The notes under the pieces: generated by a model
Seen by the model: the letters and a program-made list of their open reading frames with translations, nothing else
What the model was told of the DNA's origin: nothing
Database searches by the model: none
Translations under genes and position numbers: made by a program
NCBI GenBank assembly: GCA_024653355.1
Contig: JANLFQ010000002.1
Location: 124,001 to 188,000 of the forward strand
DNA: 64,000 nucleotides
Reading direction: 5' to 3'
Source of the DNA: a candidate division WOR-3 bacterium
GTDB lineage: Bacteria > Hydrothermota > Tepidihabitantia > Tepidihabitantales > Tepidihabitantaceae
Part shown: in pieces, positions 29,815-51,497 of the stretch
How positions within the stretch are numbered: the stretch's first letter is position 1
How the letters are laid out: each line of letters begins with the position of its first letter

Positions 29815-29819
29815 CGCAA

Positions 29820-29892
29820 TGGGCCGTGCAGGATTCGAACCTGCGGCCACCGGGTTAAAAACCAGGTGCTCTGCCTGCTGAGCTAACGGCCC
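29820..29892 (-). tRNA. tRNA-Lys(UUU)
   Basis: Full cloverleaf on the minus strand: acceptor GGGCCGT/ACGGCCC, D arm GCTCAGCAGGCAGAGC, TTC arm GCAGGTTCGAATCCTGC. Anticodon TTT in loop TTTTTAA. The anticodon stem CCTGG/CCCGG has one U-C mismatch. No encoded CCA. Confidence 0.93.
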
Positions 29893-29910
29893 AAAACTTT
29901 TCCGGCAAGG

Positions 29911-29996
29911 TGCCGGAGGCCGGAGTCGAACCGGCACGACCCAAACGGGTCAAGGGATTTTAAGTCCCTTGCGTCTGCCTATTCCGCCACCCCGGC
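29911..29996 (-). tRNA. tRNA-Leu(UAA)
   Basis: Class II tRNA with a long variable arm (GACCCGTTTGGGTC). Acceptor GCCGGGG/CTCCGGC, anticodon TAA in loop CTTAAAA. Minus strand. Confidence 0.95.
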
Positions 29997-30007
29997 AAAC
30001 AGCCCAA

Positions 30008-30079
30008 AGGCGGCACGGGGATTTGCACCCCGGAATTGCGGTTTTGCAGACCGCTGCCTTGCTACTTGGCTATGCCGCC
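30008..30079 (-). tRNA. tRNA-Cys(GCA)
   Basis: Acceptor GGCGGCA/TGCCGCC, anticodon stem GCGGT/ACCGC with loop CTGCAAA (anticodon GCA), discriminator U as expected for Cys. Minus strand. Confidence 0.95.
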
Positions 30080-30087
30080 AGAAAAAA

Positions 30088-30160
30088 AGCGGGAGACGGG
30101 ATTTGAACCCGCGACCCCCACCTTGGCAAGGTGATGCTCTACCAGCTGAGCTACTCCCGC
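30088..30160 (-). tRNA. tRNA-Gly(GCC)
   Basis: Acceptor GCGGGAG/CTCCCGC, D arm GCTCAGCTGGTAGAGC, anticodon loop TTGCCAA (GCC), T arm GCGGGTTCGAATCCCGT, discriminator U. Minus strand. Confidence 0.96.
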
Positions 30161-30179
30161 ACTCAAACCCAAAACCATA

Positions 30180-30252
30180 TGGCCCCAACCGGAGTCGAAC
30201 CGGTGCCTTCACCTTGAAAGAGTGATGTCCTAAACCGCTAGACGATGGGGCC
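30180..30252 (-). tRNA. tRNA-Glu(UUC)
   Basis: Acceptor GGCCCCA/TGGGGCC, anticodon loop CTTTCAA (TTC), T arm ACCGGTTCGACTCCGGT. First gene of the five-tRNA cluster (Glu-Gly-Cys-Leu-Lys in transcription order). Confidence 0.95.
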
Positions 30253-46441: not shown

Positions 46442-47851
46442 TTAGCGCAATTTGACAATTTTTTTCAGGGTGGCACCAGACTGCTGGAAGTAGACCCCAG
46501 ACCGTTTTTGAGGGGTGGCGGGGTTTACCCTTCTGCCGGTAACATCAAACAGGTCATGAAGCGGTTGGGGTGCGGGAGAAAGCACGGTTAACCGCTGCAA
46601 TTGATTGGATTCCGATACCGGCAGCACCGGCGCAAAGTAAATGCCGCGGGCACCGGTTGGTTCGTAGAGGCTGAAGAAAAGTGCCGGGAAAGACGGTTTA
46701 TCTCTGTAAAGCGCTACCAGTCGGGGTCGGGCACCTTCGACCTGGACATTGAGGCGGGGGGCATTAACCCGCGCGGGTGTTGACCACAGTTGGGGTGCAT
46801 ATGAGCGGCTGTTACGCCAGTACAGAACTGTGGGTCCGTTTTCGGTCCGGGCACCGGCATTGTAGCACAATTCAGCACTACCGGTTGCGGTACTGAGCCC
46901 GGGAAACCATTCGTCAACAAACGGCGCACCGAGATTGGTAACTGCTCCCCAGACGTGGCCACCATCGGTTGAGAGGGCATATTCAAGGTCAAGCATCTCG
47001 GTGTCGCGGCGTGCCACGGTCCAGCAAGCCCAGACCGGTGCCCGCCAGTAAGGGTTGATAGGTACCTGGGCAACAACCGGATTAAAACACCTTTCGCTGC
47101 CCGATTTCAGGATGTACAGACCGGACCAACGGCCCGCGGCGCCGTAATACCGATTGGCGGCGTAATGGATTTCCCGGCCGGTGATGGCGTAGCGCCAGAC
47201 ACAGTGGAGGAGTGAGCCGGTGCCAAAGGAAATTTCCGGGTCAAAACAGTTCCAGAACGGCTGACGCTCTTCCCAGCTCCTACCGCCATCTAAAGAGCGG
47301 GTAAAGTAGCCGTTTAACCCGGTGCGGTGTTCATTCACATATAGCAAATAAATGTAGTAGTTGGTGTCGCGGTCGATTGTCACCGAAAAGGCGTCAACCG
47401 TGTCCGGACCTACGGCTAATGGGATTGTCTGGGTGTCCTGCGCTATGGCGTCAAAGCGGAAGAGGTAAAGGTCGCCGTGATTTTCTGCGGTGAGGTAAAA
47501 GATGAACAGGGGTGCGGGTACGGCGGGTGCGAGTAGTTCAATTAACCGGGCGGGCCTGTTGAGGTTGATGGTTAAAACATCTTCCCAGGTGGTTCCCCTG
47601 GTTTGGGAGCGGTAAAGCGTCAGTTTGCAATCCGGACTGCCCACCGCAACCCAGAGGTGTTCTTGCGCGTCAAGAGCAGCACCGAACGCGGTCAAAGGCG
47701 AACTGTCAATCAGAACCGGTAAGGAAATTGCGCCGTCAACTGCCAGCGACTGCTGGGCCGGGTGCTGAGGGCTGGAAACAAATACGGAGTTGACCGTTAA
47801 CCCGGGCCCGGAAAGAGAGAAAAAAAGGCAGATGGCGATGAAAAAATCCAA
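46442..47851 (-). CDS. Secreted beta-propeller (BNR/sialidase-like) protein with short sorting tail
   Basis: Extracellular protein of about 469 residues, function unknown. BNR/Asp-box repeats can be seen (LYRSQTRGTTWEDV, TRSLDGGRSWEE, ALSTDGGHVWG), the hallmark of sialidase-like six-bladed propellers. The C-terminus (HDLFDVTGRRV, KRSGVYFQQSG) is a shortened T9SS sorting domain. The frame is open to 47917, but a promoter lies within that extension and predicts +1 at the TTG at 47851. From there the protein begins (M)DFFIAICLFFSLSG, a proper signal peptide; a GTG one codon earlier is the alternative. No sialidase catalytic residues could be confirmed. Confidence 0.75.
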   Translation of the reverse strand: MDFFIAICLFFSLSGPGLTVNSVFVSSPQHPAQQSLAVDGAISLPVLIDSSPLTAFGAALDAQEHLWVAVGSPDCKLTLYRSQTRGTTWEDVLTINLNRPARLIELLAPAVPAPLFIFYLTAENHGDLYLFRFDAIAQDTQTIPLAVGPDTVDAFSVTIDRDTNYYIYLLYVNEHRTGLNGYFTRSLDGGRSWEERQPFWNCFDPEISFGTGSLLHCVWRYAITGREIHYAANRYYGAAGRWSGLYILKSGSERCFNPVVAQVPINPYWRAPVWACWTVARRDTEMLDLEYALSTDGGHVWGAVTNLGAPFVDEWFPGLSTATGSAELCYNAGARTENGPTVLYWRNSRSYAPQLWSTPARVNAPRLNVQVEGARPRLVALYRDKPSFPALFFSLYEPTGARGIYFAPVLPVSESNQLQRLTVLSPAPQPLHDLFDVTGRRVNPATPQKRSGVYFQQSGATLKKIVKLR

Positions 47852-47857
47852 CACAAA

Positions 47858-47886
47858 AGTAAACACCGGGTCGAGCCCGATGTCAA
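47858..47886 (-). promoter_or_regulatory. Leaderless promoter of the propeller gene
   Basis: Minus strand TTGACA (47881-47886), 17-nt spacer, TTTACT (47858-47863), 6 nt to the TTG at 47851, exactly +1. Decides the start of that gene. Confidence 0.6.
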
Positions 47887-47986
47887 TTCCGGTAAAACCA
47901 CCATTTACCAGACACAAAAAGGAATAATGGGTTTTGTTAAAGTATGTTGTTAAGCGGATAAACGGTTTGTCCGTTGATTTACCACC

Positions 47987-48019
47987 GCCGATATTAGCCC
48001 TACTGGCGAAAAAATCGGC
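47987..48019. promoter_or_regulatory. Candidate autoregulatory half-sites for the sigma-54-type activator
   Basis: GCCGAT (47987-47992) and AAAATCGGC (48011-48019), the second being the exact reverse complement of GCCGATTTT in the palindrome at 49690. They lie just upstream of the activator's -35 box. Confidence 0.4.
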
Positions 48020-48032
48020 AACAATGAGCCAC

Positions 48033-48060
48033 TTGCCAAAAATTTTTCGGCAGTTATAAT
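48033..48060 (+). promoter_or_regulatory. Near-leaderless promoter of the sigma-54-type activator gene
   Basis: TTGCCA (48033-48038), 16-nt spacer, TATAAT (48055-48060), 10 nt to the ATG at 48071; predicted leader about 4 nt. Confidence 0.6.
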
Positions 48061-48070
48061 TTTAAAAATT

Positions 48071-49681
48071 ATGAGTTTGACCAAAAGGAAGCCGGTGGTT
48101 CTTGTCTGTTATGACCTGCGGGACAAGTTCCAGGCGTTGATTACTGCGGCGCGCAATTACGAGGCCGGCAGGCTGTTGCAGGAGTTTGATTTTGAGTACT
48201 GCGGCAGTTTGCCGGACCTGAAGTCCTGGTATAGCCGCAATCGGGGTGATTATGTGGCGTTGATCCTCCTCGGGGTTGACTTTTCGGAAATGGGTCCGGA
48301 GGACAACGGAAAACTGGTTTCGTTTTCAATCAGCGCCCGGCCGGTTGGTGCGCCGGCTGATATCAGAAAGATTCAGGGTCTGATAATCTTTCAGCACCTC
48401 AGGCAGGACCGGATTGATGTTGTGGCGCCGGTACTGTTTAACCTTGATGCGGAACAGTTCGAAGCGGTGCGAAACTTTGCACAATTCCTCTGCGCCACCC
48501 GTAATGCAACCATCGCCTTTGCCACGGGTGACCCGCGCATCAGCGGGCAGGTGGACGATGTCCTTTACGGAATAAACAACTATGCGCTCCGGCCATTGAA
48601 TGAGAACGAACGCCGGAATTGGCGCGAAACGCACAAAATGGTTGTGGGCCGGGCGCGGCGGATGGCATGGCTGGCACATGAGATTGAACGGCTTGCGGTC
48701 ACCGATGGCAATGTCCTGATTTTAGGTGAACCAGGAACAGGCAAGGAACTGGTTGCCCATGCCTTACACCGGAAGAGCTTCCGGTTTTCTGCCGAAGAGC
48801 CGCGGCGCAAGGAGCCGGTTACGCTGAATATGACGGCACTCGACCGCAATCTGGTAATAAGTGAACTTTTTGGCCATGAGAGGGGCGCGTTTACCGATGC
48901 GAAAGCGTCCCGTGCCGGGATTTTTGAAACCGCACGCGGTTCAACCGTGTTTCTGGACGAAATCGGGGATATCGATGAGGAGTTGCAGTTAAAACTTTTA
49001 CGGGTTATTGAGTACCGGAAAATCAAGCGGCTGGGTAGTTCGGTTGAGAAACAGGTTGATGTCCGAATCATTGCTGCAACCAACCGACCGCTTGAAGATT
49101 TACAGGAACGGTTCCGACCCGACTTCTATAGCCGGATGGTGCAGGAGTGTATCTGGATACCATCGCTAAAAGAGCGGTGGGAGGGTGAGTCGCCCTCGAC
49201 AATTGAAGAGGATATTGCGGAGTTTTTTGAGTTTGTTGTTGAGGAGCGAAACCGTGACCCCTGGTATCGGCGCAAGTTAAAGGTTGAACCGGTGGCAATA
49301 AGATTTCTTAGCCGTCTGGTGATACAGTATTTGCGTGGGGAAAACAGTCTTTTCAATGGCAACATCCGTGCCTTACGCGGGTTGATGGAAAGGGCATACG
49401 AACGGGCACAGCACGAAAATGTTAATTCGGTGAGCATTGGCCAGATTGCTGCCGCGGTGGCAACAACTTCACCACCGCGGATGAAAAGCGTATCCGAGAA
49501 CAATAGCGCGGGCGGCTCGATTGAGAAACTTGTCGGCAGTTTAAAACTCGCCGAGATTGAAAAGGTGGCGATAAAAGAGGCACTTAAAGTGACCAACGGG
49601 AACCAGACAAGGGCGGCAAAAATCCTTGGTATACACCGGGACACCTTGCGTAAAAAGATGCAACAGTACCATATCGATTAG
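48071..49681 (+). CDS. Sigma-54-dependent (NtrC-type) transcription activator with unusual sensor domain
   Basis: A 536-residue enhancer-binding protein. The N-terminal ~185 residues are not a canonical receiver; hydrophobic strands such as KPVVLVCYDL and YVALILLGVDF give a receiver-like look without the normal phosphorylation pocket. The AAA+ domain has Walker A GEPGTGKEL, the sigma-54 contact loop as GAFTDA (GAFTGA in the classic form), Walker B STVFLDEIGDID and the arginine-rich sensor RRIIAATNRP-like segment VRIIAATNRP. The C-terminus is a Fis-type helix-turn-helix (NGNQTRAAKILGIHRDTLRK). Directly downstream are repeated GCCGATTT sites and a -24/-12-type promoter, the likely target. Confidence 0.93.
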   Translation: MSLTKRKPVVLVCYDLRDKFQALITAARNYEAGRLLQEFDFEYCGSLPDLKSWYSRNRGDYVALILLGVDFSEMGPEDNGKLVSFSISARPVGAPADIRKIQGLIIFQHLRQDRIDVVAPVLFNLDAEQFEAVRNFAQFLCATRNATIAFATGDPRISGQVDDVLYGINNYALRPLNENERRNWRETHKMVVGRARRMAWLAHEIERLAVTDGNVLILGEPGTGKELVAHALHRKSFRFSAEEPRRKEPVTLNMTALDRNLVISELFGHERGAFTDAKASRAGIFETARGSTVFLDEIGDIDEELQLKLLRVIEYRKIKRLGSSVEKQVDVRIIAATNRPLEDLQERFRPDFYSRMVQECIWIPSLKERWEGESPSTIEEDIAEFFEFVVEERNRDPWYRRKLKVEPVAIRFLSRLVIQYLRGENSLFNGNIRALRGLMERAYERAQHENVNSVSIGQIAAAVATTSPPRMKSVSENNSAGGSIEKLVGSLKLAEIEKVAIKEALKVTNGNQTRAAKILGIHRDTLRKKMQQYHID

Positions 49682-49686
49682 TTAAA

Positions 49687-49731
49687 ACAGCCGATTTTAT
49701 CGGCACAACAGCAGAAAAAGACAGCCGATTT
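49687..49731. promoter_or_regulatory. Putative upstream activating sequences for a sigma-54 promoter
   Basis: ACAGCCGATTT occurs at 49687-49697 and again at 49721-49731, 34 bp apart. The first copy is part of the palindrome GCCGAT-TTT-ATCGGC (49690-49704). They sit about 80-125 bp before the -24/-12 element, the usual distance for enhancer sites, and share their core with the site in front of the activator gene. Confidence 0.55.
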
Positions 49732-49810
49732 CTAAGTCCAAAAGATTTGCTTTTGTGGTGTAACTGTTTAATTTTTGTTAATTTGTGATTTTTTAGCCCG
49801 CAGTATTCTT

Positions 49811-49826
49811 TTGGCATAAAATTTGT
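49811..49826 (+). promoter_or_regulatory. Sigma-54-type (-24/-12) promoter
   Basis: TTGGCATAAAATTTGT fits YTGGCACG-N4-TTGC with GG and TTG correctly spaced; C7, G8 and the final C differ from consensus. No good -35/-10 pair overlaps it. Start expected near 49838. Confidence 0.6.
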
Positions 49827-49835
49827 ATATTTTAA

Positions 49836-49987
49836 GGTAGACGAAGGGTTGGTTCGACCAGACCGAGCCGGAGGAGGCATTTGGAGGGTGTCGCGCTCAT
49901 GGTCCTCGCCTCACCAGTCCAGCACTCTCAATGGGGACCTAATTCTACGGCGTGCCAGTGCCCACGGCACGCCGTAGCGTTTTATTC
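49836..49987 (+). ncRNA. Candidate sigma-54-controlled small RNA
   Basis: A transcript of about 150 nt is predicted from the -24/-12 promoter to a perfect 12-bp terminator. No established RNA family was recognised (not SRP RNA, tmRNA, RNase P, 6S or a known riboswitch by eye). Inside are a GGAGGAGG block that can pair with TCCTCGCC and a GGT..ACC hairpin near the 5' end. Short open frames exist (TTG at 49881 or GTG at 49888 behind GGAGG-like sequence), but one runs through the terminator and the other ends within its stem, so a regulatory RNA is preferred. Remaining gap sequence at 49988-50084 shows nothing notable. Confidence 0.5.
49945..49986 (+). terminator. Strong rho-independent terminator of the candidate small RNA
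   Basis: Perfect 12-bp stem CTACGGCGTGCC (49945-49956) / GGCACGCCGTAG (49966-49977), 9-nt loop, then CGTTTTATT. No protein gene ends nearby, so it needs a separate transcript to explain it. Confidence 0.85.
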
Positions 49988-50084
49988 CGTGCGGTTAAAT
50001 ATCTGTTGGCGGGCAGTTCGGCACCTTAGGTGTCAGGTGCTTTAGGTGGAACGGTCCTCTGGTCTTTTAGATTTGTGAACGAGG

Positions 50085-50112
50085 TTGACAAACTGTTTTA
50101 TCTATTTATCCT
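50085..50112 (+). promoter_or_regulatory. Promoter of the tldD-pmbA-Lon operon
   Basis: TTGACA (50085-50090), 16-nt spacer, TATCCT (50107-50112); short leader of about 14 nt before the ATG at 50133, with only GCGGG as a weak ribosome site. Confidence 0.55.
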
Positions 50113-50132: not shown

Positions 50133-51497
50133 ATGAAAAATTTTCTTAAGGGAATTCTCGATGGATTGACCGTTGACTACGCTGACATTCGGGTTGAAGA
50201 GAGCGAGTCAACACAGGTGGTCTATTTAGGAAAGGAACTGGAGCGGATTGGCACAAGTTTCGAACGGGGCGGCTGTATGCGCGTTTTCCATCAGGGCAAC
50301 TGGATTACCGCAACCTTCAACACCATTGACGAAAGTTTGAAGGAGCTGGCAGACGAACTGGCGTTACAGGCGCTGGCGTTACCGAGACGGGAAAACGGGT
50401 TGGTATTTCTGCCGGCTCTGGAACAGCGCATCCGCTTACCAAAGGAGCAGCACCCGGCAAGGGTCTCGCTTGCGGAAAAGCACGACCTGATTAAAAATTA
50501 CAATTCGATACTGCTAAACACGCCGGGTATTGTAACCACCGTTTCCGCTTATGCGGACCTGCATCGCATGACATACCTGTACACAACCGAGGACCGCTAT
50601 ATTGAACAGGAGCAGGTTTACACCGGTGTTACCTGTCGGGCGGTTGCGCGGGACGGTGCAAACATTCAAAGTTATGGCGAGACCTTTGGTAAATGTCAGG
50701 GTTTTAACTCGTTGCGCCATCAGGAGGCGCGATTTGAGCGGGTGGCAAAGATCGCTTTAGACCTGTTAACTGCCGAGCCGGTAAAGGCGGGCAAATACAC
50801 GGTGGTCGTTGACCCGATTCTGGGCGGGGTATTTGTCCACGAGGCGTTCGGTCATATGAGCGAAGCCGACTTCATCGCCGAAAACGAGCGCCTGCGGGAA
50901 AAGATGAGGATTGGCGCCCGGTTTGGGGTTGAGCAGTTGACAATTGTCGATGATGCCACCCTGCCCGAGGAAAGGGGCAGTTACCACTTTGATGAAGAGG
51001 GCACGCCGGCACAGCGCACCGAACTCATTCGCCACGGCATTCTCGTGGGCCACCTCCATAGCCGCCAGACCGCGCAGCAGATGCAGGAAGAGCCGACCGG
51101 AAACTGTCGGGCGGTTTCTTATAGATTTGCGCCAATCGTGCGGATGAGTAACACTTATATCGAACCCCGGGACAAAAAACTCGATGAAATGGTGGGTGAG
51201 ATCGACTATGGGCTTTATGTTGTTGGCTCCCGGGGGGGGATGACCGAACTTGAGGCGTTTACCTTTTCGTCCCAGTATGCCTATTTAATAGAAAAAGGCA
51301 AATTGACGAAGATGGTGCGTGATGTCACCCTTTCCGGTAATGTGTTTGAAACGATGATGAACATCGATGCGATTGGCAACGACCTCATAATTCACGGCGG
51401 GCTTGGTGGTTGTGGCAAGGCCGGACAGGCGCCTTTGCCGGTGGGTACCGGTGCACCGCACATTCGGATCAAAAATGTTGTGGTTGGTGGCCGATGA
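50133..51497 (+). CDS. tldD: TldD-type metalloprotease subunit
   Basis: Catalytic subunit of the TldD/TldE (PmbA) heterodimeric zinc protease that degrades unfolded peptides and modified peptides. 454 residues. The active-site motif is HEAFGH (His236, Glu237, His241) in GGVFVHEAFGHMSEADF, and later the family motif GGCGKAGQAPLPVGTGAPHIRI-like end is seen (written in part: GQAPLPVGTGAPHIRI). Followed after 18 nt by the partner gene. Confidence 0.94.
   Translation: MKNFLKGILDGLTVDYADIRVEESESTQVVYLGKELERIGTSFERGGCMRVFHQGNWITATFNTIDESLKELADELALQALALPRRENGLVFLPALEQRIRLPKEQHPARVSLAEKHDLIKNYNSILLNTPGIVTTVSAYADLHRMTYLYTTEDRYIEQEQVYTGVTCRAVARDGANIQSYGETFGKCQGFNSLRHQEARFERVAKIALDLLTAEPVKAGKYTVVVDPILGGVFVHEAFGHMSEADFIAENERLREKMRIGARFGVEQLTIVDDATLPEERGSYHFDEEGTPAQRTELIRHGILVGHLHSRQTAQQMQEEPTGNCRAVSYRFAPIVRMSNTYIEPRDKKLDEMVGEIDYGLYVVGSRGGMTELEAFTFSSQYAYLIEKGKLTKMVRDVTLSGNVFETMMNIDAIGNDLIIHGGLGGCGKAGQAPLPVGTGAPHIRIKNVVVGGR

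Follow-up and report, generated by a model that had tools for sequence, protein, structure and literature searches.

A predicted signal-switched small-RNA unit beside an NtrC-type sigma-54 activator in a candidate division WOR-3 bacterium

Introduction

Many trans-acting small RNAs elsewhere use Hfq, the Qrr RNAs of the Vibrionaceae among them, and to our knowledge the well-studied circuits in which a sigma-54 activator controls a small RNA come from gamma-proteobacteria. In the Pseudomonadaceae, the CrcZ gene follows cbrB as an independent transcription unit that needs sigma-N and CbrB, and this gene order is conserved across the family (PMC8871633, PMC6296734). Qrr1 needs sigma-54 together with LuxO or SypG (PMC10162802). 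In Proteus, GlmY adjoins qseEGF, and QseF activates it from a sigma-54 promoter (PMC8745638, PMC6075780).

The locus described here lies in a 64-kb stretch of DNA (the window) from the genome of a candidate division WOR-3 bacterium (G000). With CbrB-CrcZ/CrcY it shares an NtrC-type activator, a small-RNA gene directly 3' that forms its own unit, a sigma-54 promoter, activator sites in between, and a gene order that holds family-wide (PMC8871633, PMC6296734). CbrB sites, however, are non-palindromic, whereas the sites here are dyads, and no histidine kinase gene was seen beside the activator in G000. LuxO-Qrr1 places a sigma-54-dependent small RNA under an NtrC-type response regulator (PMC10162802), an arrangement that the locus is predicted to resemble, and a LuxO structure is among the best whole-protein Foldseek matches of the activator; the signal here may be a different one. 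With the QseF (GlrR)-GlmY/GlmZ system of Enterobacteriaceae it shares a sigma-54 promoter, upstream activator sites and, in Proteus, an RNA gene beside the regulator operon (PMC8745638, PMC6075780). There glmY precedes the regulator genes, and no qseE- or qseG-like genes were seen beside the activator here. The initial annotation of the locus had chosen GlmY/GlmZ for comparison, which is apt as logic, but CbrB-CrcZ is closer in gene order. The predicted circuit thus works like CbrB-CrcZ, LuxO-Qrr1 and QseF-GlmY, while the RNA belongs to none of their Rfam families: CrcZ and Qrr gave no match here, and GlmY and GlmZ are unrelated to it in sequence and structure by Rfam. A search of the 18 genomes of the bacterium's family (f1) found no Hfq, with which the Qrr RNAs act and which CrcZ sequesters as Hfq-Crc. 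A literature search, as far as it reached, found no account of such a module in this lineage.

Results

The conservation of the segment downstream of the activator was examined by BLAST with the 301 bp at 49700-50000. The sister species (G001) matched at 85% over query positions 113-284, corresponding to 49812-49983 of the window; this match opens at the first base of TGGCAT, the -24 element, and closes behind the terminator stem. More distant genera matched at 74-83% over parts of the RNA. Covariance models built from 9 sequences (R1) and 15 sequences (R2) located the RNA in 17 of the 18 f1 genomes, which span 7 genera, normally with one copy each. No convincing match was obtained outside f1, either with R1 in 147 genomes of the phylum or with R2 in 28 genomes of the order; the best candidate there, in the rpsF-ssb region of G018 (E 0.044), resembles chance. 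The RNA lies directly 3' of the orthologous activator in 15 of the 17 genomes. The remaining pair differ: G002 carries the RNA, still preceded by its promoter, on another contig than the activator, and G008 has a scaffold gap of N at the expected activator place, followed by the 3' half of the RNA. In the 18th genome (G017), a -24/-12-like site follows the activator and the contig then ends. The order that recurs in f1 is activator stop codon, dyad sites, -24/-12 promoter, GACCGAGC and terminator. Judged from sequence, the signal across the 16 relatives is far beyond chance, whereas the evidence from this genome alone is modest.

Next, the predicted promoter of the RNA was considered. The initial annotation had made its reading depend on rpoN, and the genome does encode RpoN (PF04552, E 2e-53). 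The putative -24/-12 element, TTGGCATAAAATTTGTA, lies on the plus strand at 49811-49827 and matches 9 of 11 consensus positions, with GT where the consensus has GC; taken alone, it is modest evidence from a single genome (shuffle p = 0.011). Promoters were scored as the best TGGCAC-N5-TTGCA match in the 100 nt before GACCGAG, with dinucleotide shuffles as the control. Matches of 8 to 11 of 11 were found at 16 loci (11/11 at four of these), and the sum of 158 was far above the shuffled value of 109.1 +/- 3.1, for which the highest of 1000 shuffles was 121. A second contig of G015, excluded from the sum, also carries an 11/11 match. Elements of the TGGCAC-N5-TTGCA type are therefore present at these 16 loci well above the shuffled level. 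Counting 12 nt from the -12 base places the predicted start at 49838, in agreement with the start near 49838 in the initial annotation.

The sequence ACAGCCGATTT occurs exactly twice in the window (49687-49697 and 49721-49731), and the palindrome GCCGAT-TTT-ATCGGC occurs once (49690-49704). The window palindrome, GCCGATTTTATCGGC, is a 7-3-7 dyad shared across genera; its full form, AGCCGAT-TTT-ATCGGCA at 49689-49705, is the predicted main upstream activating site and stands 106 bp ahead of the -24 element. A second enhancer copy, ACAGCCGATTTCTAAGTC, read from the window sequence, is half-conserved and lies at 49721-49738. Across relatives, all 7 genera have a dyad of the form TGCCGNA-NNN-TNCGGCA 3' of the activator stop codon, 81-120 bp ahead of the -24 element. 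The dyad sum score was 156, compared with 116 +/- 3.2 in shuffles; because the consensus had been picked visually from the very sequences scored, this figure is partly circular, and the independent evidence is how little the distances vary. The window dyad by itself gave p = 0.025, again modest for one genome. The loose form GCCGAN5TCGGC has 10 exact occurrences genome-wide, and the dyad alone therefore defines no regulon. The two GCCGATTT-type sites, the palindrome, the -24/-12-like element and the terminator reported earlier downstream of the activator were all recovered at the same places, and the expectation that activator, dyad sites and terminator would be conserved together in relatives was borne out. 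In G018, which belongs to family f2, an 11/12 dyad (TGCCGAAATAAACGGCA) lies past the stop codon of the activator, with 7 nt left before the contig ends (C117:1-81; L017 / L158 end), and family f2 may carry the RNA too.

The predicted non-coding RNA, found with R1 and R2, is about 148 nt long and lies on the plus strand at approximately 49838-49986. Across the family its length from the predicted start is about 125-200 nt, with a variable leader. Two segments, GACCGAGC and GCGCUC, are nearly invariant. In the conserved motif GACCGAGCC (49861-49869, plus strand), G1, A2, C3, C4, A6 and G7 are invariant in 15 sequences, and GCGCTC (49893-49898, plus strand) is found in 14 of 15 aligned sequences, with G014 as the exception. 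The GAGCC of GACCGAGCC and the G(c)GCUC at 49893-49898 are able to form a helix (helix A), which is 97% paired, nearly invariant and has zero compensatory changes. Helix B, in contrast, is supported by covariation: its arms, GGTCCTC (49901-49907) and GGGGACC (49933-49939), both on the plus strand, include four of six model pairs that changed on both sides across genera, and its sequence is GUCCCC/GGGGAC in most genera and GUUUCGGCUG/CAGUCGGAAC in part of g5. The intrinsic terminator (49945-49986, plus strand) consists of a perfect 12-bp stem formed by CTACGGCGTGCC (49945-49956) and GGCACGCCGTAG (49966-49977), a 9-nt loop (AGTGCCCAC) and then CGTTTTATT; 8 of its 11 model pairs show compensatory changes, and 99.4% pairing is retained. 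In G009, R2 also detected a second, diverged RNA copy (C298:4851-4971; L055:1440-1625; E 1.7e-5) that has its own TGGCACGGTGGTGGCG element upstream and the 5' motif CACCAAGGC replacing GACCGAGCC.

In the alignment as a whole, which was fitted to the model and so leans towards structure, 97.2% of cells were paired, compared with 89.4% in shuffles and 33-61% when columns were slid by 1-3, and 12 of 22 pairs had changed on both sides, compared with 4.5 in shuffles. The fold of the window copy gave a z-score of -1.7 (modest, and from a single genome), its minimum-energy structure is without helices A and B, and single-sequence folds vary between genera. Because the alignment favours structure and the single folds differ, both helix A and the fold as a whole are tentative. 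Judged by eye, a pseudoknot joining the terminator loop to the 5' leader fits some genomes only. Searches of Rfam with the window copy and 11 relative loci returned zero matches at E <= 1; the initial annotation had likewise recognised no RNA family. Its conservation marks the predicted RNA as real and as a new family, absent from Rfam, within a known type of circuit.

The activator gene occupies 48071-49681 on the plus strand and encodes 536 aa, as supported by domain matches, models and orthologues. The protein is an NtrC-type enhancer-binding protein, with an AAA+ sigma-54 interaction domain (PF00158, E 2.4e-50), a C-terminal Fis-type helix-turn-helix (PF02954, E 1.5e-16) and the Walker motifs GEPGTGKE and FLDEIG. 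Its sigma-54 contact loop reads GAFTDA in the window copy, replacing GAFTGA; orthologue alignment gave GAFTDA or GAYTDA in g1 and g5, and GAFTGA or GAYTGA in other genera and families. Full-length orthologues, 42-82% identical, are present in most of f1 and, outside it, in three of the order's four remaining families. When named bacterial genomes were scanned with the whole activator alignment, only AAA+ paralogues were found, because the patterns were derived from the conserved AAA+ core.

The N-terminal 190 residues gave no Pfam match above noise, to a receiver or to anything else, in 20 orthologues. In Foldseek searches, the AlphaFold model of this region found Spo0A and other receivers as its top matches (E 1e-4; TM 0.71-0.74 of target), and the model of the whole activator was nearest to NtrX, NtrC1, FleQ and LuxO. 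The N-terminus thus appears, from the model, to fold like a receiver that Pfam misses. Asp70, the candidate phospho-acceptor, is nearly invariant, but the usual receiver Lys position appears as Arg (ALRPL); the acidic pair is partial in g1. Given this combination, the signal to the activator may be phosphorylation or something else.

The initial annotation had also proposed that the activator regulates its own gene, citing AAAATCGGC ahead of the promoter. This 9-mer is indeed present 5' of the activator promoter at 48011-48019, although it is common in the window (5 + 2 copies). It belongs, however, to a likely activator site, the dyad TGGCGAAAAAATCGGCA (48004-48020), which matches 10 of 12 enhancer consensus positions, and the sister species has a dyad at a similar place (9/12). 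The promoter itself, TTGCCA-16-TATAAT (48033-48060, plus strand), is sigma-70-like by consensus (11/12). A dyad precedes this promoter in g1 and g5 and weakly in g2, and is absent in g3. No sigma-54 promoter was found upstream of the activator gene, so autoregulation would act on the sigma-70 promoter. The proposal consequently stands in a restricted form: a further binding of the activator, 5' of its own sigma-70 promoter, is probable in g1 and g5, and autoregulation is plausible only in these genera and perhaps g2.

Discussion

The reading that we favor, with a probability of about 85%, is a signal-switched small-RNA unit in which an activator bound to a dyad drives a sigma-54 promoter for a terminated, trans-acting RNA. 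The activator, which has a receiver-like sensory domain, would bind the 7-3-7 dyad just 3' of its own stop codon, about 80-120 bp ahead of the -24/-12 promoter, and would open this promoter for sigma-54 polymerase at the cost of ATP. The product would be one short structured RNA that ends at the strong terminator and does not run on into the next gene. The family-wide conservation of promoter, dyad, RNA and terminator supports the view of the initial annotation that the locus is a sigma-54-controlled small-RNA module.

The RNA would then act in trans, most likely by pairing with mRNAs through exposed segments (GACCGAGC, GCGCUC and C-rich loops), and would do so without Hfq, a point that weighs against the reading since many such RNAs elsewhere depend on it. 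In the 18 f1 genomes, neither Hfq (PF17209) nor CsrA (PF02599) gave a match, although control bacteria did match. Mechanisms copied directly from CrcZ or CsrB are thus excluded, as far as these models see, and the lack of CsrA sets the RNA apart from sponges of the CsrB/RsmZ type. Pairing with mRNAs is a default guess for how the RNA acts, and binding of a protein is its main rival; RNA duplex energies with the start regions of the activator and neighboring genes were no better than those of shuffles.

According to that rival, synthesis of the RNA is unchanged but the RNA sequesters a different RNA-binding protein, in the manner of CrcZ with Hfq-Crc and of CsrB with CsrA. The segments GACCGAGC and GCGCUC vary less over 7 genera than we would expect of a typical mRNA-pairing seed, and CrcZ has the same gene order (PMC8871633). 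Each motif, however, is present in a single copy per RNA, where sponges usually carry many, and with neither Hfq nor CsrA found in the 18 f1 genomes, we regard sequestration as rather unlikely. We hold a similarly doubtful view of a family-wide riboregulator whose GACCGAGC and GCGCUC segments bind one universal partner, either an RNA-binding protein or a core RNA. If that were true, an atypical receiver-AAA+ switch would have this RNA as its output, and the RNA would represent a new class of riboregulation.

Several readings would do away with the trans-acting RNA altogether. A gene for a TldD/PmbA-type metalloprotease (tldD; PF19289, E 4e-64) follows on the plus strand at 50133-51497, and since the segment is directly 5' of tldD in g1 and g5, it might be a riboswitch-like leader or attenuator with a conditional terminator. 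But tldD is the downstream neighbor only in those two genera, a glycosyltransferase-like gene follows the RNA in g3 instead, and tldD has its own sigma-70-like promoter past the terminator (TTGACA-16-TATCCT, 10/12, at 50085-50112 on the plus strand), with similar promoters read by eye between terminator and tldD in G001, G002, G014 and G006. The varying downstream gene and the separate promoter argue against a leader, no alternative anti-terminator was seen, and Rfam gave no match; we consider this reading highly improbable, and by these sequence comparisons the RNA is a unit separate from the downstream gene. Even less probable is that the RNA serves as a short mRNA encoding a small protein, for example through the 29-codon frame that opens with a GTG immediately 5' of GCGCTC and closes with the TAG at 49975-49977. 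This frame and an upstream GGAGG are present in G000 and G001, but the frame is shifted by one base in G002, has no equivalent bounded by start and stop codons in other genera, and has its stop within the terminator stem; variation tracks base pairing, and no reading frame in the RNA is conserved across relatives. We give the least credence to the idea that the activator transcript simply ends in the conserved block, which would then be no more than its 3' end with a terminator. The block does come after the activator stop codon in most genomes, yet the sigma-54 promoter lies in between in the genomes checked, the RNA and promoter of G002 are on a different contig from the activator, and conservation begins at the promoter rather than at the stop codon.

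Under the favored reading, of a sigma-54-driven, trans-acting RNA, the same wiring serves an unrelated RNA in a lineage that is both distant and uncultured, which suggests that this wiring arose more than once. The locus would offer a ready system for asking how bacteria without detected Hfq or CsrA use regulatory RNAs. The RNA is conserved enough to warrant an Rfam family, and its near-invariant motifs make its partner searchable.

Elsewhere in the window, five tRNA genes (Lys, Leu, Cys, Gly and Glu) are clustered on the minus strand at 29819-30252. Divergent from the activator, and no part of the RNA module, an open reading frame on the minus strand at 46442-47917 encodes a secreted-looking protein with no Pfam or NCBIfam match; its g5 orthologue has a weak BNR_2 (BNR/Asp-box) match below the cut-off (E 9e-4). 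In g1, g3, g4 and g5, genes of the same kind are divergently oriented next to the activator or to its partner gene. The gene preceding the activator in g3 and in families f2, f3 and f5, which was not found in other f1 genera, encodes a membrane protein with weak FG-GAP/propeller-like repeats (L158:1724-4135, minus strand; L156:2007-4292; L160:2475-4274, minus strand; L159:2341-4320). Its cytoplasmic domain has no Pfam match and contains invariant HN...KGN, DH and SD residues, and this protein is a plausible partner of the activator and a candidate new sensor.
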